39,297 nucleotides of DNA from a virus: positions 1 to 39,297 of the IMG/VR virus record IMGVR_UViG_3300025687_000118; one strand, 5' to 3'. How positions within the stretch are numbered: position 1 is the first letter of the stretch; every line of letters starts with the position of its first letter. Positions 23,473 to 37,756 of the stretch are shown here, in pieces. The position numbers were made by a program, and so were the translations under genes. The notes below the pieces were generated by a model. The model ran no database searches. It was given only the letters and a program-made list of their open reading frames with translations, and was not told the origin of the DNA.

Positions 23473-24486
23473 ATGAGCTTATTCAAACGAGCAGCAATTT
23501 TCACCGACATTCATTTTGGTCTAAAGAACAATAGCATTACACATCTACAAGACTGCGAAAGTTTTGTAGATTGGTTTATTGATTTAGCCAAAAGTAAAAA
23601 TTGCGAAACTGGAATGTTTTTAGGTGATTGGCACCATCACCGTGCTAGCATTAACCTGCAGACATTAAATTTTAGTTTACGCAGTCTAGAAAAATTGTCT
23701 GCTGCGTTTGATCAGTTTTACTTCTTGCCGGGCAATCACGACTTGTACTATCGCGACAAGCGTGATATTCACGGAGCAGAATGGGCAAAGCATTTACCTA
23801 ACATTCACGTTATTAACGATTGGTTTACAGATAGCGATGTAACTATTGTTCCGTGGCTAATTGGCGATGACCATAAACGTATTCAAAAGATCTCATCCAA
23901 ATATGTTTTCGGACACTTTGAATTACCACATTTTAAAATGAATGCTATGGTAGAAATGCCAGACACAGGCGAAGTTAACGCAGATGATTTTAAAGGTGTT
24001 GAGCGTGTGTTCAGTGGGCACTTCCATATGCGGCAAAATAAAGGTAATATTTCGTACATTGGCAATGCTTTCCCTCATAATTTCGCAGATGCAGGTGATG
24101 AACAACGCGGTGCTACTATTTTAGAATGGGGACAAAACCCAGAGTTCTTTGCGTGGGATGCACAGCCTACATATCGTGTTATTGATTTGTCTGCTCTTAT
24201 TGATCACGCTGATCAAATTCTAAAGCCTAATCAGCATGTTCGTGTTAATTTAGATATCAATGTAAGTTACGAAGAAGCAAACTTTATTAAAGAAACATTT
24301 GTAAACGGGTATGGCATTAGAGAAATTAGTCTTTTGCCAAAATCTAAAAATCAAGAACATGAAAATGATGGTGTTGATACTACTGTATTTCATTCAGTTG
24401 ACCAGATTATTACTGATCAGTTGACAAACATCGATTCTGAGTTTTATAATAAACAATTGTTACTACAAATTTATCAAAACTTATGA
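23473..24486 (+). CDS. 47: Recombination endonuclease subunit gp47 (Mre11/SbcD-like)
   Basis: 337 residues, near T4 gp47 (339). The calcineurin-like phosphoesterase motifs are all present: D12-I-H14 in TDIHFG, G51-D52-W-H-H-H in LGDWHHHR, G87-NHD-90 in LPGNHD, then GHFELPHF and SGHFHMRQ, which complete the two-metal site. With gp46 it forms the exonuclease that resects ends for recombination-dependent replication and degrades host DNA. Its ATG follows the gp55 stop by two bases. Its TGA overlaps the ATG of the SGNH-like gene (ATGA), so the normally adjacent 47-46 pair is split by an inserted gene. Confidence 0.93.
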   Translation: MSLFKRAAIFTDIHFGLKNNSITHLQDCESFVDWFIDLAKSKNCETGMFLGDWHHHRASINLQTLNFSLRSLEKLSAAFDQFYFLPGNHDLYYRDKRDIHGAEWAKHLPNIHVINDWFTDSDVTIVPWLIGDDHKRIQKISSKYVFGHFELPHFKMNAMVEMPDTGEVNADDFKGVERVFSGHFHMRQNKGNISYIGNAFPHNFADAGDEQRGATILEWGQNPEFFAWDAQPTYRVIDLSALIDHADQILKPNQHVRVNLDINVSYEEANFIKETFVNGYGIREISLLPKSKNQEHENDGVDTTVFHSVDQIITDQLTNIDSEFYNKQLLLQIYQNL

Positions 24487-25223
24487 AATTATATTTTAAC
24501 GGATGTAGTTTTACATATGGCGATGGCATAATAAACCCTAGCCAGAATGCTTGGCCTAGTTTAGTTTCAAAAAAACTTCATCATATGTTTACAAATGATG
24601 CTGTTAGCGGTGGATCAAATGATAGAATTGTTTATCGAACTATAAAAAATGTTGATTACTACGATAAATTTTTTATAGCATGGACGTCGTATTCTAGATT
24701 TACAAAATACAATCCTGTTGACAATTTTGAAATTAATTTTAATCCAAACTTAAATTTAAATGCATCATTGCACCATAGTGATGATTTAAAATTAAATTAT
24801 AACAAATATAAAGATTTTGGTAATATGTATTACAAATATTGGTATAACGAGTTATACGAGTTTAAAAATTGGTTACAACAAATAATTCTATTACAAAGAT
24901 TTCTAGAATCTAAAAATAAGGATTATATAATGATGAATATGTTAAATTCCACCCTATCTAACTGGCTTAGCTCAAAACAAGATTTTATTGCAAACATTAA
25001 AGAGTTTATTTGTTTTGATCAAATGTCTGATGAACAAATTTTTAACGAATTTGATGAAATTAACCAGTATGCAGACGAGATTAATAAAGAAAAATTTATC
25101 AACTGGGGGGGATCTATCGGAGATATAATTATACAGAAAAAATTAACAATTTCAATTTCTGATTCACATCCGTCAATAGACGGACATAAATTTATAACTA
25201 AATTAGTGTTGGAAAATCTATGA
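24483..25223 (+). CDS. SGNH/GDSL-like hydrolase inserted between gp47 and gp46
   Basis: 246 residues. The N-terminus LYFNGCSFTYGDG (residues 3-15) is the block I of SGNH-type hydrolases, with S9 as likely nucleophile; SGGSNDRI near 42-49 could supply the Gly/Asn oxyanion residues. The C-terminal SDSHPSIDGHKF carries the usual Asp-His region. The family hydrolyses esters of lipids or sugars; the substrate here is unknown. It overlaps both neighbours by ATGA, so it is translationally coupled yet functionally unrelated to them. It is visibly more AT-rich than gp47 and gp46, which suggests later acquisition. A structural or non-catalytic role remains possible. Confidence 0.75.
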   Translation: MKLYFNGCSFTYGDGIINPSQNAWPSLVSKKLHHMFTNDAVSGGSNDRIVYRTIKNVDYYDKFFIAWTSYSRFTKYNPVDNFEINFNPNLNLNASLHHSDDLKLNYNKYKDFGNMYYKYWYNELYEFKNWLQQIILLQRFLESKNKDYIMMNMLNSTLSNWLSSKQDFIANIKEFICFDQMSDEQIFNEFDEINQYADEINKEKFINWGGSIGDIIIQKKLTISISDSHPSIDGHKFITKLVLENL

Positions 25224-26980
25224 TTAAAATTAAAACACTAACCGTTAAAAACTTTATGAGCGTGGGTAATGCTACCCAAGCAGTTCATTTTGACCGCAAT
25301 GATTTAACATTGGTTCTAGGTAATAATATGGACTTAGGCGGCGATGGTGCTCGTAACGGCACAGGTAAGACTACTATCATTAACGCACTTTCGTATGCGT
25401 TTTACGGTATAGCACTGACTAACATTAAACGCGATAATTTAATCAACAAAACAAATTCCAAAGGTATGCTTTGCTCTGTAGAGTTTGAGTATGCTGGTAA
25501 AGAGTACAGAATTGAGCGTGGGCGCAAGCCTAACGTATTAAAGTTCTACATTGAAAATGAAGAACAAGAGTCAACAGATAACGCCCAAGGTGATTCGCGA
25601 GAAACACAAAAAGCCATTGAGGAATTGCTAGGTATAAGCCACAACATGTTTAAACACATTGTGGCTTTGAACACGTATACCGAACCTTTCCTCAGTATGC
25701 GGGCTAACGATCAGCGTGATATTATTGAGCAATTGCTTGGTATCACATTGCTTACTGAAAAAGCAGAACATTTAAAAGATCAAGCCAAAAATACAAAAGA
25801 TCTCAAAAAAGAAGAAGAGTTGCGTATCCAAGCAGTTATGGATGCTAATCAACGTATTCAGGATCAAATTGATTCTGTAAAGCGTAGACAACGCATGTGG
25901 CTAGATAACCAACAAAAAGATATTGCTGATTACAAAGCGTCGATTGAAGCTCTCGAGCATATTGATATTGAAGCAGAAGTAAAAGCGTTTGCTGACATTG
26001 ATGCATATAACGAAAAGAAAGCACAAATTGATACATTACAAGGATATCAAACCTCAATAGACGCCGAAAATAAGCGTCTTGGCACCAAAATTCAAAAATT
26101 AGAAAAAGAAATTGCTTCGCTAAAAGATCACAAGTGCCATGCGTGCGGTCAAGAGCTGCACGATGCCAAACATGAAGAAATTTTAGCGGACAAAGAAGGT
26201 GACTTACAACAAGCCGCACTTCAAATTATCACTAACGAAGGCCAATGGGACGAAGCACATCAAGGATTGCAAGCACTAGGCGAGCTTGGCGCCAAGCCGC
26301 AAACATTTTATAAAACACTACAAGAAGCACTAGAGCATAAGAATACACTCGAAACTGCTCGTGCGCAGCTAGAAACACGACGCAACGAAACAGATCCATA
26401 TGCTGAGCAAATTACAGAAATGCAAGAGCAAGCATTGCAAGAAGTTTCATATGATCATATGAACGAGCTTGCGCATTTACAAGAGCACCAAGAGTTCTTG
26501 CTTAAATTGCTTACTAACAAAGATTCGTTTATTCGTAAAAAGATTATTGATCAGAATCTAGCATACTTAAACTCAAGATTAACACATTATCTTGACAAGA
26601 TTGGCTTGCGACATACGGTCCAGTTCTTAAACGATCTTTCTGTAGAAATTACAGACCTGGGTCGTGATTTAGATTTTGATAACTTATCGCGCGGCGAACG
26701 TAATAGACTTATTTTAAGTTTGTCGTGGGCATTCCGCGACGTTTGGGAATCATTATACCAGCCAATTAACCTTGTGTTTATTGACGAGCTCATTGATTCG
26801 GGAATGGATACACAAGGTGTTGAGAACAGTTTGAGCATTCTTAAACACATGACTCGTGAACGTTCTAAGAGCGTTTGGCTTGTATCGCACAAGGACGAAT
26901 TAATTGGACGTGTACATAATACGTTAACCGTTGTTAAAGAGAACGGTTTTACAACCTACGACACCACAGATGTTACTTGA
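25220..26980 (+). CDS. 46: Recombination endonuclease subunit gp46 (Rad50/SbcC-like ATPase)
   Basis: 586 residues, near T4 gp46 (560). The Walker A is at 43-52 (GARNGTGKTT). A coiled coil rich in Glu, Gln and Lys spans about 170-440 with a zinc hook CHACGQ near 305. The ABC signature LSRGERNRL lies near 488, followed by Walker B NLVFIDEL near 516 and a conserved VSHKDEL near 563. It partners gp47: ATP-driven opening and closing controls nuclease access to DNA ends. Its start overlaps the SGNH gene stop by ATGA; its stop overlaps the next start by 11 bases. Confidence 0.94.
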   Translation: MIKIKTLTVKNFMSVGNATQAVHFDRNDLTLVLGNNMDLGGDGARNGTGKTTIINALSYAFYGIALTNIKRDNLINKTNSKGMLCSVEFEYAGKEYRIERGRKPNVLKFYIENEEQESTDNAQGDSRETQKAIEELLGISHNMFKHIVALNTYTEPFLSMRANDQRDIIEQLLGITLLTEKAEHLKDQAKNTKDLKKEEELRIQAVMDANQRIQDQIDSVKRRQRMWLDNQQKDIADYKASIEALEHIDIEAEVKAFADIDAYNEKKAQIDTLQGYQTSIDAENKRLGTKIQKLEKEIASLKDHKCHACGQELHDAKHEEILADKEGDLQQAALQIITNEGQWDEAHQGLQALGELGAKPQTFYKTLQEALEHKNTLETARAQLETRRNETDPYAEQITEMQEQALQEVSYDHMNELAHLQEHQEFLLKLLTNKDSFIRKKIIDQNLAYLNSRLTHYLDKIGLRHTVQFLNDLSVEITDLGRDLDFDNLSRGERNRLILSLSWAFRDVWESLYQPINLVFIDELIDSGMDTQGVENSLSILKHMTRERSKSVWLVSHKDELIGRVHNTLTVVKENGFTTYDTTDVT

Positions 26981-27377
26981 ACTTTATCATCCGGAACTAA
27001 CCGAATATAAGTATTTTGTTAATGATGTTTTAATATCCGAAGGTCTGTGTAATTGCTCGGTAGTCATTAAAATAAACCCTGGTCCAGATAAAATTTCAGT
27101 TTGGTTTACGCCGTGGAAAATTAAACCTATTGTTAGAATAGATAATATTTTAGTTAATTATTCTCTTGCTAACATTTGTATGTACGATCATATGCTTGAA
27201 TTAAGTGTACCAACAGACTTTTTTGATCAGTATCATTCTGCTGATATTAATAGTCGCATTCAAAGTGTATTTGGCAATAAACCAATCGATCCTGCATTGT
27301 ACGATTTAGTTATTGGCATTGGCAAATCGCACACGGCATTAATTGATAAAATTCGGAACATTTTAAACATTGAATAA
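26970..27377 (+). CDS. Unknown protein after gp46
   Basis: 135 residues if started at the ATG at 26970 (MLLELYHPELTEYKYF), which overlaps the end of gp46 by 11 bases. An upstream in-frame ATG at 26931 would force a 50-base overlap and is less likely. I recognise no family. The protein looks folded, mixed alpha/beta, with the segments KISVWFTPWKIKPIVRID and LYDLVIGIGKSHTALIDKIR, no membrane segment and no signal peptide. It overlaps the start of the radical SAM gene, so it probably belongs to that cassette as a partner, carrier or substrate-binding protein. That is inference from position. Confidence 0.7.
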   Translation: MLLELYHPELTEYKYFVNDVLISEGLCNCSVVIKINPGPDKISVWFTPWKIKPIVRIDNILVNYSLANICMYDHMLELSVPTDFFDQYHSADINSRIQSVFGNKPIDPALYDLVIGIGKSHTALIDKIRNILNIE

Positions 27378-28866
27378 ATTTTTGTTTATAGGTATTCCTT
27401 TAATTGAAACGCAATATCCTTCTGCTGCGTACGGTTCTCTACGTCCAGTTATCTCACAAAATAACTTAGAACCAGTCTTTATTGATTTAAATATCAAACT
27501 TAAACAATGTTTGTCTGAGAAAATGTTTGACGAACTTAATAATTGGTCAATGTTTGCATCTAACTCAATATCTCAAGAAGTTAAAGAAAAATATATCGAA
27601 GTAATTGATAATTTTTTGCTGAATTCAATTGATGATTCTGTTATATGGATTGGTATTAGTGTATTAAGTTATTTTAGTGCTAGACCAACACGATTACTCT
27701 TAGAACATTTAAAAAAGAAAAATGTTAAATCTAAAATTTTGCTTGGCGGAAACGGATTGAGTAGTAAATTACCCGAATCTGAAAATAAAGAATTTGGAGT
27801 TTGGTGCTTAGATAATAATTTATGTAACTTTTCAATTTTTGGCGAAGGCGAGTTAGCACTAGATAATCTATTAAAGGCAAATACAAATTATCCTGGAATC
27901 AACGATCCGAATTTTGAACAGGTAAAAGATCTAGACAGTCTTACCAACCCAGACTATTCAAATGTTAATTGGGATGAATATCAAGATCCTAGAATAATGA
28001 TTACTAGTAGCCGTGGGTGTGTTAGGCATTGCACGTTTTGCGATATTGCTACTGTTTGGCCAAAATTTTCTTATCGTTCCGCAGAAAAAATTGTTAATGA
28101 AATTAAAGAATCAGTATATCAATACGGACTTACAAAATTTGAATTTACTGATAGTTTAATCAACGGTAGTGTTACAAATTTTAATCGTTTTAATGATCTG
28201 CTTGCAAATGAAAAAGTTAAAGATCCTTTATTAAAAGATGTTACATACACTGGCCAATTTATTTGCCGTAATAAGTCTAAAATGCCCGAGACTACATATG
28301 AGTTAATGCATTACGCAGGGTGTAAGCAAATTACAGTTGGCATTGAAAGTTTTTCTGAACGTGTTCGTTATCATATTAAAAAGAAATTTTCTGACGCAGA
28401 TATTGATTATCATTTAGAAATGTGCGGTCGTTGGGGTATACCAAACGTATTTTTAATGATTGTTGGATATCCTACAGAAACATTAGCAGATCATCAATCT
28501 AATATTAGAGCACTACATCGTTACAAAGCATATTCAGATACTGGAACTATTTTTATGATGCGGTGGGGGTTTACTATGCACATTTATGACGGTACTCCTA
28601 TTTCTAGTATGGCAGATGATTTACAAATTACAACATTAGGTATTGATAATTCAGATTCTGTTTACAATTGGGTATCTGCGTTGAATCCGACATTAACGTT
28701 ACCAGAACGTATACGTCGACGGTTAGAATTGCACGAAGTTAGTACAGAGTTGGGTTATGCTATGCCAGGCGCAAATAAAGAATTAACAGCGATACTTGAA
28801 ATTGCAAATAACTATAACGGAAAAAATAATATAGTATTTCCTAAGGCAGAATCAAATTATGGATGA
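27370..28866 (+). CDS. B12-binding-type radical SAM protein
   Basis: 498 residues with a TTG start at 27370, overlapping the previous stop by eight bases. Residues 1-190 resemble the Rossmann cobalamin-binding domain of this class (FIGIPLIETQYPSAAYGSLR, FIDLN, KILLGGNGLSSK, FGEGELALDNLL), but no DxHxxG cobalt-ligand motif is seen. The radical SAM core begins with SSRGCVRHCTFCD: C217, C221 and C224 for the 4Fe-4S cluster. It continues with EFTDSLING, GCKQITVGIESFSERVR and FLMIVGYPTET. The class performs methylations, ring contractions and similar radical steps; the substrate is not evident. The neighbouring oxygenase-like protein suggests a short modification pathway. It is AT-rich compared with gp46. 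Confidence 0.82.
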   Translation: MNKFLFIGIPLIETQYPSAAYGSLRPVISQNNLEPVFIDLNIKLKQCLSEKMFDELNNWSMFASNSISQEVKEKYIEVIDNFLLNSIDDSVIWIGISVLSYFSARPTRLLLEHLKKKNVKSKILLGGNGLSSKLPESENKEFGVWCLDNNLCNFSIFGEGELALDNLLKANTNYPGINDPNFEQVKDLDSLTNPDYSNVNWDEYQDPRIMITSSRGCVRHCTFCDIATVWPKFSYRSAEKIVNEIKESVYQYGLTKFEFTDSLINGSVTNFNRFNDLLANEKVKDPLLKDVTYTGQFICRNKSKMPETTYELMHYAGCKQITVGIESFSERVRYHIKKKFSDADIDYHLEMCGRWGIPNVFLMIVGYPTETLADHQSNIRALHRYKAYSDTGTIFMMRWGFTMHIYDGTPISSMADDLQITTLGIDNSDSVYNWVSALNPTLTLPERIRRRLELHEVSTELGYAMPGANKELTAILEIANNYNGKNNIVFPKAESNYG

Positions 28867-29500
28867 TATCATTTTTAAAGAAAATTTCTTTTCTAAAGAA
28901 TTAATGGAAAGGTTAAACCATGATTTAGAGTCATTGAGTTCTGGAAGCAACTTTGTTGATCCGGCAGGTATCTGGGTTGGACAACTTATTGCTAATCAAC
29001 GTAGATTGGTTCGTAATGAAGTGTTTGATACCAGTGTTAAAGAAGTTATTGATCTTATACTTCCAGAATTTGATCTGGGTGCATTTATTGCAGAATTATC
29101 GTACGTTAAATTATATCTTCCGTGGGATATACACACCGATTCTAATAGACAACAATCGTTTACTCAAAGACCGTATTATAATGTATTAATACCATTGCAT
29201 TCTGTTGACTCTCGCACTATTATCTTTAACGAAGCGTCAGAGGAATTTAATGAATTTTCAAAATTTAAAGAACAGAATCAAAAATCTAACAATCCAGTTA
29301 GTTTAGATATATGGAACAAATATTTAGACATGTGTTGGGATCACGATAGAGAATGGCTCAGTATTAAAGAAATTTTACCTGCACAAGATGCAGGACAGTT
29401 TATAGCATTCAAAAGAAAGTTTTTTCATAGTTCAGATAATTTTCACAAAAGATTATCTGGACCAAAACGTTTTTTACAAATTATTGTAGATCAAGCGTAA
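28859..29500 (+). CDS. 2OG-Fe(II) oxygenase-like protein
   Basis: 213 residues; the start overlaps the radical SAM stop by eight bases. The pattern fits the double-stranded beta-helix oxygenases: an iron-binding HxD in LPWDIHTDSNRQQ (near 92-98), then YYNVLIPLHS, and near the C-terminus FFHSSDNFHKRLSGPKRFLQ, where the distal His and the 2-oxoglutarate-binding Arg are expected. Such enzymes hydroxylate proteins, nucleic acids or small molecules and are frequent in marine T4-like phages. Pairing with a radical SAM gene suggests both act on one substrate. The assignment rests on motif order, not alignment. Confidence 0.7.
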   Translation: MDDIIFKENFFSKELMERLNHDLESLSSGSNFVDPAGIWVGQLIANQRRLVRNEVFDTSVKEVIDLILPEFDLGAFIAELSYVKLYLPWDIHTDSNRQQSFTQRPYYNVLIPLHSVDSRTIIFNEASEEFNEFSKFKEQNQKSNNPVSLDIWNKYLDMCWDHDREWLSIKEILPAQDAGQFIAFKRKFFHSSDNFHKRLSGPKRFLQIIVDQA

Positions 29501-29538
29501 AAAGTATTACATTATTATTACAAGGTATAAGTAAGCAC

Positions 29539-30069
29539 GTGCCAAGTCCACAGAAAGCAAAAGGTAGTAATTGGGAAAGAGATGTTGCTAGACAACTTTC
29601 TGAAATCTACAACGAAACCTTTATTAGAGTTCCTGGATCTGGTGCGTATGTGGGCGGCTTAAATGCTGCTCGCAAAGAATTTTTACACGAAGGCACTATA
29701 CGAGTGCTTAAAGGAGACATTGTTCCTCCGTTAAGTTTTCCTCGTTTTAATGCTGAGTGTAAAAGTTATAAAGAATTTCCGTGGCATCAACTATACTCAG
29801 GCGACTGCAAAGTTCTTGACGGTTGGATAACTCAGTGCCTAGATGCTGCGGACGAAGGCGACGTGAATTTATTATTCATGAAGTTCAACCGTATTGGCAC
29901 ATTTTTGGCATTTGAACAGGCATATCAAGATAAATTTTTAACACCAAGTTATACATTATACTCAGGGAAAAACTTAGGCAAGAACTGGATTATAACAGAA
30001 TTAGGTACATTCTTAGAAAATAAACAAAATATAAACAATTTAAAGGAAATTTGTTCTGCTAAACAATAG
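29539..30069 (+). CDS. PD-(D/E)XK nuclease, Holliday-junction-resolvase type
   Basis: 176 residues from a GTG at 29539. The N-terminus AKGSNWERDVARQL with E13, RVPGSGAYVGGLN, KGDIVPP with D60, and AECKSYKEF with E73-x-K75 make the E...D...ExK active site of archaeal Hjc/RecB-like nucleases. The likely role is to cut branched replication and recombination intermediates before packaging, which in T4 is done by the unrelated endonuclease VII (gp49). It is the last protein gene of the plus-strand operon that starts at gp55, and the structured RNA region follows directly. Other PD-(D/E)XK functions such as repair cannot be excluded. Confidence 0.8.
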   Translation: MPSPQKAKGSNWERDVARQLSEIYNETFIRVPGSGAYVGGLNAARKEFLHEGTIRVLKGDIVPPLSFPRFNAECKSYKEFPWHQLYSGDCKVLDGWITQCLDAADEGDVNLLFMKFNRIGTFLAFEQAYQDKFLTPSYTLYSGKNLGKNWIITELGTFLENKQNINNLKEICSAKQ

Positions 30070-30074
30070 CACCC

Positions 30075-30711
30075 AAAGAATAAACGGTTGAGTTTAGTAG
30101 GCACAGTTGAAGCACATAAGGTTAGCGGGCCAGAATAATAATACCGCTGTGGAAAAGCCAGGGTAATAACTGGACACGCAACACGTTGAGAGAAACCCCA
30201 CTGGGCGTACATTGACGTAGAAGATTTGCTTCCTTCTAGAGCACTATCGCTACAAAAAACTATGCAGTTAGGAACGAGAGCATAGGTAGTGTGCATTATC
30301 ACACACAAAAACATATGTTTTTGTACAGTATAATGTACATGATGTCGTGGCAGGTAAGGGAAAAGCACAGAGTCCCAGTAGCATTGATAGTGTTAAAGCT
30401 AAAATACCTGCTTCCGTCATACGAAAGTCTTTTGACCATCAAGTAACATACGGGGCCTTAAACAGGTTCCGTATGACTTCAAGATCATTCTCCATCAAGA
30501 TATCTTAACTTCAGTTCTTAACAGAACTTCGTTACTTCTATAATAAAATCAAATAAAAAATATTAAACCAAAAAAAAATAAAACGAGCTGAAAGCGAGTT
30601 TTAGATGTCGTTAGACATCTCTCTAAGAAGATTTGGAATAAAATCAAAATGTTTAAGGAGAAATCTGAGTCAAGAAAAAACCCATATGCTTTGGCGGACA
30701 TATGGGTTTTT
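30075..30711 (+). ncRNA. Candidate large structured non-coding RNA (about 600 nt)
   Basis: No credible gene lies here, but the region is packed with perfect inverted repeats: AGCGG/CCGCT (30124-30148), CCAG/CTGG (30158-30173), TAGAAG/CTTCTA (30218-30238), CTATGC/GCATAG (30260-30285), GTGTG/CACAC (30289-30304), ACAAAAAC/GTTTTTGT (30305-30324), GCAGGTA/TACCTGC (30350-30411), GTCATACG/CGTATGAC (30416-30477), AGTTCT/AGAACT with TAAC loop (30513-30528), AGATGTC/GACATCT with GTTA loop (30603-30620). It ends in a strong terminator. Purine-rich unpaired stretches between the stems look like those of ornate phage RNAs (GOLLD or ROOL class), but I cannot assign a family from memory. The 5' end is uncertain; the RNA may be cut from, or be the 3' end of, the upstream operon transcript. 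Confidence 0.68.
30676..30711 (+). terminator. Bidirectional rho-independent terminator
   Basis: A 13-bp perfect stem, AAAAACCCATATG with CATATGGGTTTTT, around a ten-base loop. Its arms supply a U-run on both strands, so it can stop the plus-strand operon and RNA from the left and the minus-strand DUF6614-like gene from the right. It lies between these convergent units. Confidence 0.88.
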
Positions 30712-30744
30712 GATTAGGCACGTTACATTGCGTAACAAATTTAT

Positions 30745-31077
30745 TTATTCAAATGTATCTGGCCAGTCGCGATAATATGCGTGCTTGATATCTTCTACAA
30801 ATTGATTAAAACTTTGGTGTTTAGTTTCAAGCTCACCTTCGAGCGGTGCTACACGCTTAAATGCTGCTTCGAGTTGTGCCATATCCTTAAACTCCATCAT
30901 AATGTGCCACTCTGGCAAATTAGGAATTGAAGCAAAACCCATCTTACAACGTGTAATGCGATATCCTTCGCATTTGCCTTCGTTTTTTAAGTGATCAAGA
31001 AAACCTTTCATATTGTTAACCCAATCAATATCTGAAATGTCTGTGCTTTTTTCAGCCCAGATGTGGTAAATGTCCAT
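30745..31077 (-). CDS. DUF6614-like small protein
   Basis: 110 residues from the ATG at 31077, chosen because AGGAG stands eight bases before it; the frame is open further upstream, to an ATG at 31152, but with no ribosome site. The pattern MDIYHIWAEK, WVNNMKGFLDHLKNEGKCEG, YRITRCKMGFASIPNLPEWH, DMAQLEAAFKRV and a C-terminal YYRDWPDTFE resembles the DUF6614 family, small ferredoxin-like-fold proteins of alphaproteobacteria with no known function. Its presence suggests a gene captured from the host. It is transcribed divergently from the transferase-like gene, with 33 bases between starts, and ends toward the bidirectional terminator. Confidence 0.75.
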   Translation of the reverse strand: MDIYHIWAEKSTDISDIDWVNNMKGFLDHLKNEGKCEGYRITRCKMGFASIPNLPEWHIMMEFKDMAQLEAAFKRVAPLEGELETKHQSFNQFVEDIKHAYYRDWPDTFE

Positions 31078-37382: not shown

Positions 37383-37390
37383 ATAAAACT

Positions 37391-37618
37391 ATGCAACTAT
37401 TTGAAATGTTTGATCCAGCAGTACCAGGCTTACAAAGCGTTCAAGATGACAACACTCAGCTTGACGATGAAGCCACACGTAAAACTCGTTTAACATTAAA
37501 ACAAATTAATAAACTACGTCTTATGCTTGACGTAAGAAACGTTGAATATAGAGAAAAGTTAAAGAAGATTCAAAAACAATATGCCGCACCTGCAGAACCT
37601 GTAGGTCCACCAATGTAA
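37391..37618 (+). CDS. Small prohead-core-type protein (gp67-like by position)
   Basis: 75 residues. The centre is one amphipathic helix, KTRLTLKQINKLRLMLDVRN then VEYREKLKKIQKQY, with a Pro-rich end. T4 has the small prohead core protein gp67 directly after gp20, so position and size suggest the same role. The sequence alone is not decisive. It starts eight bases after the portal stop; TATAAATA at 37378-37385 overlaps that stop but is too close to the ATG to be a normal promoter for this gene. Confidence 0.7.
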   Translation: MQLFEMFDPAVPGLQSVQDDNTQLDDEATRKTRLTLKQINKLRLMLDVRNVEYREKLKKIQKQYAAPAEPVGPPM

Positions 37619-37667
37619 GAGATTTCGACTATATCTAGTAGTTAAAATCCTTCATTTCTACCTTTTT

Positions 37668-37682
37668 CCGCCTTTTTGGCGG
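37668..37682. other. Hairpin in the gap before the scaffold gene
   Basis: CCGCC-TTTTT-GGCGG is a perfect five-base stem in the 138-base gap between the gp67-like and gp68-like genes. The T-run comes before, not after, the stem on the plus strand, so it is not a standard terminator. A second weak palindrome, ATTGTAAATACAAT, is at 37708-37721. The gap may contain an RNA processing or expression-tuning site for the abundant scaffold protein. No clear promoter was found in it. Confidence 0.4.
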
Positions 37683-37756
37683 TAATATACACATATTTTT
37701 GTAAGTCATTGTAAATACAATACACATAAAGCCATACTTTATTGGAGAATATCAAT

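Follow-up and report, generated by a model that had tools for sequence, protein, structure and literature searches.

What is made from the long gap that follows the last gene of a recombination operon in an aquatic T4-like phage, and what might it do? The DNA analyzed here, referred to as the window, is a linear IMG/VR fragment of 39,297 bases (record IMGVR_UViG_3300025687_000118, positions 1–39,297) from a phage of this type. Its operon runs in the order gp55 (22568), gp47 (23473), gp46 (25220), a radical SAM gene (27370), and a resolvase gene (29539–30069), and the region of interest (30070–30711) starts directly after the stop codon of this last gene, at 30069. A first-pass annotation of the window had read the region as a large structured RNA, perhaps of a new family, that lacks a plausible gene on the operon strand and ends in a strong terminator. 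The same annotation predicted early synthesis of the RNA along with gp55. No strong promoter match was found for the region. Beyond the convergent DUF6614 gene on its other side (from 31077 down) lies a baseplate-hub-like gene, which is also convergent to the operon. The features bordering the region are as follows.

29539..30069, + strand: upstream gene, PDDEXK_15/RusA-like Holliday junction resolvase (PF24608, E 2.7e-22; phrog_244, E 8e-18)
30675..30711, no strand: bidirectional terminator-like hairpin, AAAAACCCATATG...CATATGGGTTTTT, between the convergent operons
30748..31077, − strand: downstream convergent gene, DUF6614 (PF20319, E 1.6e-26)

Elsewhere in the window, the interval between gp46 and the resolvase gene (26931–29500) looks like a variable cargo slot. 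In the window it encodes a radical SAM protein and one of 213 aa; the related locus L004 has an ORF of 584 aa there, L007, L009, and L012 have other ORFs, and L006 has nothing. A DUF6071 protein is encoded at 24483–25223, between gp47 and gp46, and a further gap of about 360 bases (37383–37741) contains no ORF of 80 aa or more and has portal-like and prohead-core-like genes on either side.

That the region encodes one or more small proteins is extremely improbable. Open reading frames of 30–56 aa exist on the + strand (the longest internal ones within 30070–30711 being 51–56 aa), and a 139-aa frame on the − strand (29949–30368) overlaps the region, but none of these is conserved in 72 homologues. 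In these homologues, the longest open stretch in each + frame has a median of 34–40 aa, lengths do not vary by multiples of three, the − frames are not conserved as open, and the substitutions are accounted for by compensatory changes. The absence of a plausible gene on the operon strand is thereby borne out, and a conserved reading frame, which the first-pass annotation had named as evidence against an RNA, is absent from the 72 homologues. The + strand has a folding energy of −169.7 kcal/mol, compared with −134.9 (SD 7.5) in 20 shuffles (z −4.6); the − strand also folds well (z −3.9), so the strand cannot be assigned from folding energy alone. In the helices described below, G-U cells outnumber A-C cells by 305 to 30 (H11, which was misregistered in that count, being left out), and this excess points to an RNA read from the + strand.

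Two covariance models were built from 25 homologues with the window left out. R1, which represents the 5′ domain (H2–H5 and the conserved block GGTTRGCGGGCC..CCGCTGTGGAAAA), finds window positions 30105–30236 with 110.4 bits (E 1.4e-31), and R2, which represents the 3′ half (H10, H11, H12, and the UGAC..TCT motif), finds 30340–30499 with 57.4 bits (E 5e-13). As judged by these held-out models, the window RNA is a divergent member of an uncatalogued family of large phage RNAs, referred to here as class A. The class A signature, GGTTRGYGGGCCNG-N{2,18}-RCYGTGGAA, occurs in at least 120 viral stretches in IMG/VR, with about two matches expected by chance (an estimate), and the matched stretches show a common block with covarying hairpins. 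The homologues are metagenomic contigs. Fourteen pattern matches in bacterial genomes were rejected as chance, because all eight of those tested with R1 fail. Blastn of class A, and of the classes B and C described below, against isolate phages gave no relative, and the isolates with the nearest resolvase among those examined (PA5oct, SCTP-2, and Phosso) have no comparable RNA gap after it.

No family of Rfam 15 reaches its gathering score in the window, which agrees with the first-pass annotation's failure to match any class; relaxed thresholds gave only low-scoring, chance-like matches, and a typical class A homologue, L288, has no match up to E = 10. The GOLLD covariance model has no match up to E = 5 in the window region, and the ROOL model has none in the window or in L288. 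By these searches, class A corresponds to no Rfam 15 family by sequence or structure model, and GOLLD and ROOL are excluded as sequence families for the window RNA, because the whole library gives nothing for it. The likeness to GOLLD and ROOL proposed in the first-pass annotation thus stands as to the kind of object and fails as to a match with either Rfam covariance model. A literature search outside most subscription journals gave no description of class A RNA.

Among the matches listed, an upstream ORF was identified at 114 loci. At 93 of these, a GIY-YIG SegE gene directly precedes the class A RNA, which usually starts at the stop codon of that gene; the remaining loci are preceded by a PDDEXK resolvase or by small ORFs. 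Most class A phages (e.g., L184, L199, and L217) have SegE (PF19835) where the window has its PDDEXK resolvase. The SegE family phrog_447 is labeled “NAD synthetase” in PHROGs, which looks like a misannotation. In L256, a GDSL-hydrolase-like ORF (assigned by eye) adjoins the class A RNA. Weak matches to the class A 5′ domain were seen at L092:4100–4195 (28 bits) and L096:6154–6246 (25 bits), where other genes separate them from the resolvase.

The structure of class A RNA was derived from A3, an independent default MAFFT alignment of 72 homologues. The RNAalifold consensus of a first, 80-sequence alignment was poor, because RNAalifold cannot draw pseudoknots, and a covariation search was used instead. 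The elements found are listed here at their window positions.

30105..30500, + strand: conserved core of class A RNA (5′, middle, and 3′ domain, the latter with the twin element described below), from A3 and the held-out models
30109–30114 with 30227–30232, + strand: helix H1, a pseudoknot whose 3′ strand is the loop of hairpin H5
30125–30128 with 30144–30147, + strand: helix H2 (GCGG/CCGC), in the most conserved block
30158..30173, + strand: hairpin H3, two-sided changes in 4/4 pairs, significant against the tree-based null
30183–30189 with 30212–30218, + strand: helix H4, closing a variable arm; 98% paired, four pairs with two-sided changes
30220–30224 with 30233–30237, + strand: hairpin H5, whose loop pairs in H1; 98% paired, four two-sided pairs
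30249–30253 with 30378–30382, + strand: long-range helix H6, a pseudoknot across H10
30260..30285, + strand: hairpin H7 with conserved loop AGGAACGA (30270–30277); two-sided changes in 4/4 pairs
30347–30349 with 30366–30368, + strand: helix H9, a pseudoknot across H10 and H11; 98% paired, 3/3 pairs two-sided
30350–30355 with 30406–30411, + strand: helix H10, enclosing H11; 98% paired
30358–30360 (GGG) with 30374–30376 (CCC), + strand: helix H11, inside H10; 98% paired
30450–30457 with 30465–30472, + strand: stem-loop H12, between the twin copies; 99% paired, with mostly G-U and one-sided changes
30500–30578: A+T-rich linker
30579..30620, + strand: tail of two abutting hairpins, with loop GAGCTGAAAGCGA in the first

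The A3 structure comprises 11 helices, 55 pairs, and three pseudoknots, with standard pairs in 97.5% of 3,956 cells. Two-sided changes occur in 34 pairs and 584 cells, compared with 25 pairs and 166 cells in shuffles; these counts take related sequences separately, and the tree-based tests address kinship only in part. In the tree-based null, substitutions were redistributed on the tree of 80 sequences, and this null was beaten by 16 column pairs, 14 of which are base pairs or near-register pairs and two direct neighbors of these. H1 is paired in 99.8% of cells, with two-sided changes in 5/6 pairs, and its pair 30109/30232 is significant against the tree-based null. H2 is 100% paired, and C-G is replaced by U-A in five sequences. 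The strongest covariation in the family is that of H6 (95.5% paired, two-sided changes in 5/5 pairs), and the long-range helices were recovered by the helix search. When helices were slid by 1–3 columns, at most 43% of cells paired, in a control that favors the structure, the core alignment being sequence based and the structure derived from the same sequences. As a negative control, H9 shifted by one column was 7% paired, compared with 98% in register.

Based on these data, class A is almost certainly a conserved structured RNA family, and comparison of homologues shows a compact predicted fold in which three pseudoknots tie together a scaffold of at least 11 helices. The large structured RNA postulated from the window is thus supported by abundant compensatory changes in homologous stems, together with the lack of a conserved frame. 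The stems picked by eye in the first-pass annotation were partly right, and the real set includes short long-range helices and the three pseudoknots; the strong terminator was recovered as the bidirectional hairpin at approximately 30675–30711. The pseudoknots, the direct-repeat element, and the replacement of one RNA class by another are beyond the content of that annotation.

A search with the resolvase returned relatives L003–L019. All loci inspected in this set have a noncoding stretch of 400–650 nt after the resolvase gene that is not the window's sequence: class B RNA in L003–L007, where the resolvase is 72–90% identical to that of the window, and class C RNA in L008–L015 and L017–L019. 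Class A was found in the further resolvase relatives L083, L077, L074/L076, and L082/L087. Alignment of the window with L004 gave 92.6% DNA identity at 29504–30015 and 85.4% at 30669–31077, with nothing alignable between: the RNA has been exchanged as a cassette. Fifteen viral records (59,996–260,148 bases) were tested with a single signature for each of A, B, and C, and in none of them did two classes occur together. Cassette exchange at one locus would fit putative host-interaction or anti-defense genes. In L037, tandem repeat units (GTTCGCATTAGGCGATCTAGGCACA) occupy the first ~150 nt after the resolvase, directly before the RNA.

The first ~140 nt of class B match the Polynucleobacter-1 RNA (L003, 39.2 bits; L007, 38.5 bits; gathering score 37), and the same model (RF01718) does not match the window's own RNA. 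R2 also finds class B loci, in the position where the domain is expected (L072, E 3e-7; L089, L046, L063, L031, and others), and therefore A and B share a 3′ domain. Through this domain, class A is tied, distantly, to RNAs with a Polynucleobacter-1 5′ part. One locus, L231, is a chimera of a class A 5′ domain (102.6 bits; L231:489–637, − strand) and a class B middle (GGTACAGCACAACCGCC), which shows modular recombination between the classes. The helices of class C, which covary and include pseudoknots, are its own, and neither R1 nor R2 matches the five class C loci tested; its locus, tail hairpins, and stem-loop-UGGCU arrangement are as in class A. The tail tandem hairpins are common to all three classes, with a first loop of type GAGCGNNAGCGA or GAACGAAGTGA, and were absent from reversed or shuffled controls.

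These tails bear on the view that the region amounts to no more than a structured mRNA end that terminates and protects the operon transcript, with no role in trans. Such a view would account for a region that begins immediately past the final stop codon of the operon, ends in a terminator, has no strong promoter match, and shares its tandem hairpins among all classes. However, a terminator or stabilizer needs neither three conserved pseudoknots nor long conserved unpaired blocks nor a co-changing repeat, and we regard this view as improbable.

The repeat in question is a twin element in the 3′ domain, with these copies in the window.

30436..30443, + strand: copy 1, CCATCAAG, repeated exactly at 30492; CTC-N5-A-W in relatives
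30492..30499, + strand: copy 2, CCATCAAG, identical to copy 1

In classes A and B, the 3′ domain reads A-CTC-N5-A-W, followed by a stem-loop, UGAC/UGGC, and A-TCT-N5-A-W. The pentamer N5 occurs in at least 16 versions (ACATG 57, GGATG 10, AGATG 8, ACATA 8, GCATG 4, and others) and is CCATC in both window copies (30436 and 30492). Loci were found by flanking anchors, without requiring identity between the copies, and the same pentamer stands in both copies at 102 of 105 anchored loci. The three discordant loci are misanchored or class C, the concordant L071 is also spurious, and L040 is a real exception in which one base differs between the copies. The base after the pentamer is A in both copies (101 loci), and the following base (A/T), for which a match was likewise no condition, is the same in 98 of these 101. 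The triplets just 5′ stay different, CTC at copy 1 and TCT at copy 2, in 101/101, and gene conversion between the copies was rejected because these adjoining triplets remain distinct.

On a tree of class A built from A3 with the twin columns left out, copy 1 changed 20 times and copy 2 changed 18 times, and 17 of these changes are identical and on the same branch. The close relatives L064 (AGATG) and L090 (GGATG), for example, differ in both copies together. Comparison of the loci thus shows two copies that selection keeps identical to each other and that are free to change between phages, and the element very probably functions as a matched pair. In class C, a direct repeat, GGCAA, flanks the GGTAGTGC stem-loop (e.g., L027, L069, and L058) and is perhaps the counterpart of the twin element; it is nearly fixed (AGCAA in L058), so fast co-change is not universal.

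No other pairing-partner column covaries convincingly with the twin element. Its complement is not enriched in the 5′ part, between the copies, or in the tail, and complementarity is avoided between the two copies. In flanking phage DNA, element and complement are neither enriched nor avoided by Markov-corrected counts, with which an apparent initial depletion disappeared. Pairing with a tRNA anticodon loop, in which the invariant A after N5 would face U33, was rejected by reasoning, as N1-N2 do not fit positions 37–38.

The spacers of site-specific recombination show identity without a fixed sequence, and the twin element resembles them in this respect. The element could thus be a DNA-level or strand-exchange site, the partners of recombination or polymerase slippage having to match, in which case no third partner would be needed, and none was found. 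Against this, a single-copy (excised) locus was seen in none of approximately 100, the repeat sits in a conserved RNA domain with G-U-rich pairing, 7 bp is short, and classes A and B keep the intervening stem-loop. We consider a strand-exchange site very unlikely.

The genes upstream raise the possibility that the RNA is a guide or cofactor of the neighboring nuclease (the GIY-YIG SegE or the PDDEXK resolvase), whose targets the twin element would specify. A nuclease gene lies directly upstream in most class A loci (GIY-YIG in the 93 of 114 given above, PDDEXK in others), and a nuclease that is dimeric or acts at two sites would be well served by two short specificity elements of identical sequence. 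However, the nucleases that precede this one RNA class are of two unrelated folds, unrelated small ORFs lie in between at some loci, and the upstream gene of L256 is not a nuclease; furthermore, 5–7 nt is short for a guide, and neither element nor complement is depleted in flanking phage DNA. Such a role is therefore quite unlikely.

The best explanation overall, which these comparisons make somewhat probable, is that class A is a pseudoknotted phage noncoding RNA that acts as a scaffold presenting the twin elements to a trans partner. A noncoding RNA of ~400–640 nt would be made from the + strand at the 3′ end of the gp55/gp47/gp46/resolvase operon, with its 3′ end defined and protected by the tail hairpins and terminator. 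The scaffold would hold both copies single-stranded on either side of H12, and each would bind one copy of the same partner, supplied in trans; the chances are about even that two copies of one such partner bind the twin element. The partner is hypothetical, because enrichment of a complement was seen neither in cis nor in the flanking DNA; it could be a second nucleic acid or half of a protein dimer. An unchanging partner such as rRNA is disfavored because the elements differ even between closely related phages. These changes would be explained by a partner, of phage or host, that co-evolves with the RNA and does so quickly, such that both copies must follow together. The whole RNA would be exchangeable for another class at the same locus. 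It is also conceivable, with a low probability, that the RNA bridges two identical nucleic-acid sites (e.g., two DNA ends or two RNAs) via a freely evolving code of 5–7 nt, together with the adjacent Holliday-junction or GIY-YIG nuclease. If this were true, it would represent RNA-directed recombination or cleavage of a form new in phages, and a phage's RNA class and code would set its specificity against relatives or hosts.

Among rivals to the trans-partner scaffold, we place first a homo-oligomer or nanocage like those of GOLLD and ROOL, followed in order by the nuclease cofactor, the elaborate 3′ UTR, and the strand-exchange site. GOLLD and ROOL often lie near tRNA islands, and ARAGORN finds no tRNA in the 39-kb window, which is a fragment. 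Nor is there an Rfam match, and if subunits touched by base pairing, with the twin element as contact surface, each RNA would have to carry the element's complement as well, and none was found there. Non-Watson–Crick contacts would escape this last argument, and class A is the same kind of molecule, being large, pseudoknotted, phage-borne, and poorly conserved in primary sequence. Nanocages built of RNA alone are formed by GOLLD and ROOL, whereas OLE dimerizes (PMC12286853). An oligomer of this kind is, on this evidence, rather unlikely.

To our knowledge, large ornate phage RNAs are few and without known function. Class A adds a further family to these; it is common among viral contigs of aquatic origin, and its comparatively derived secondary structure has three pseudoknots. 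Its locus is one at which three classes of RNA substitute for each other in phages whose neighboring genes are nearly identical. The agreeing pair of short elements marks the probable site where the RNA meets a partner and provides a testable handle; L064 and L090, natural close relatives that differ at the element, are ready-made tools for a partner search.

In its setting, class A can be compared with the IS110 bridge RNA, which adjoins a resolvase-like enzyme and has two short specificity elements. Class A likewise lies beside a resolvase-like enzyme and carries two short elements, but these are identical to each other, there is no IS110/RuvC recombinase, and no sign of DNA pairing was seen. 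Class A also resembles GOLLD and ROOL, which PMC12286853 describes as large, pseudoknotted, sequence-diverse RNAs of phages and prophages with no known function, in being large, pseudoknotted, phage-carried, and diverse in sequence. It differs from them in lacking a model match and a nearby tRNA and in following a recombination operon; a co-changing direct repeat is not mentioned for GOLLD or ROOL in the accessible part of that paper. OLE, a large conserved RNA of ~600 nt that forms an RNA-only dimer (PMC12286853) and occurs mostly in Gram-positive extremophiles (PMC12054373), is likewise large, but no OLE match was obtained here. Polynucleobacter-1 (RF01718) appears in the 2010 list by Weinberg et al. 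as a candidate RNA of Burkholderiales and of fresh water/estuary (PMC2864571). It matches the 5′ part of class B, which shares its locus and type of 3′ domain with the window RNA, and its Rfam model, of 141 nt only, corresponds here to the 5′ part of a phage RNA of ~650 nt.
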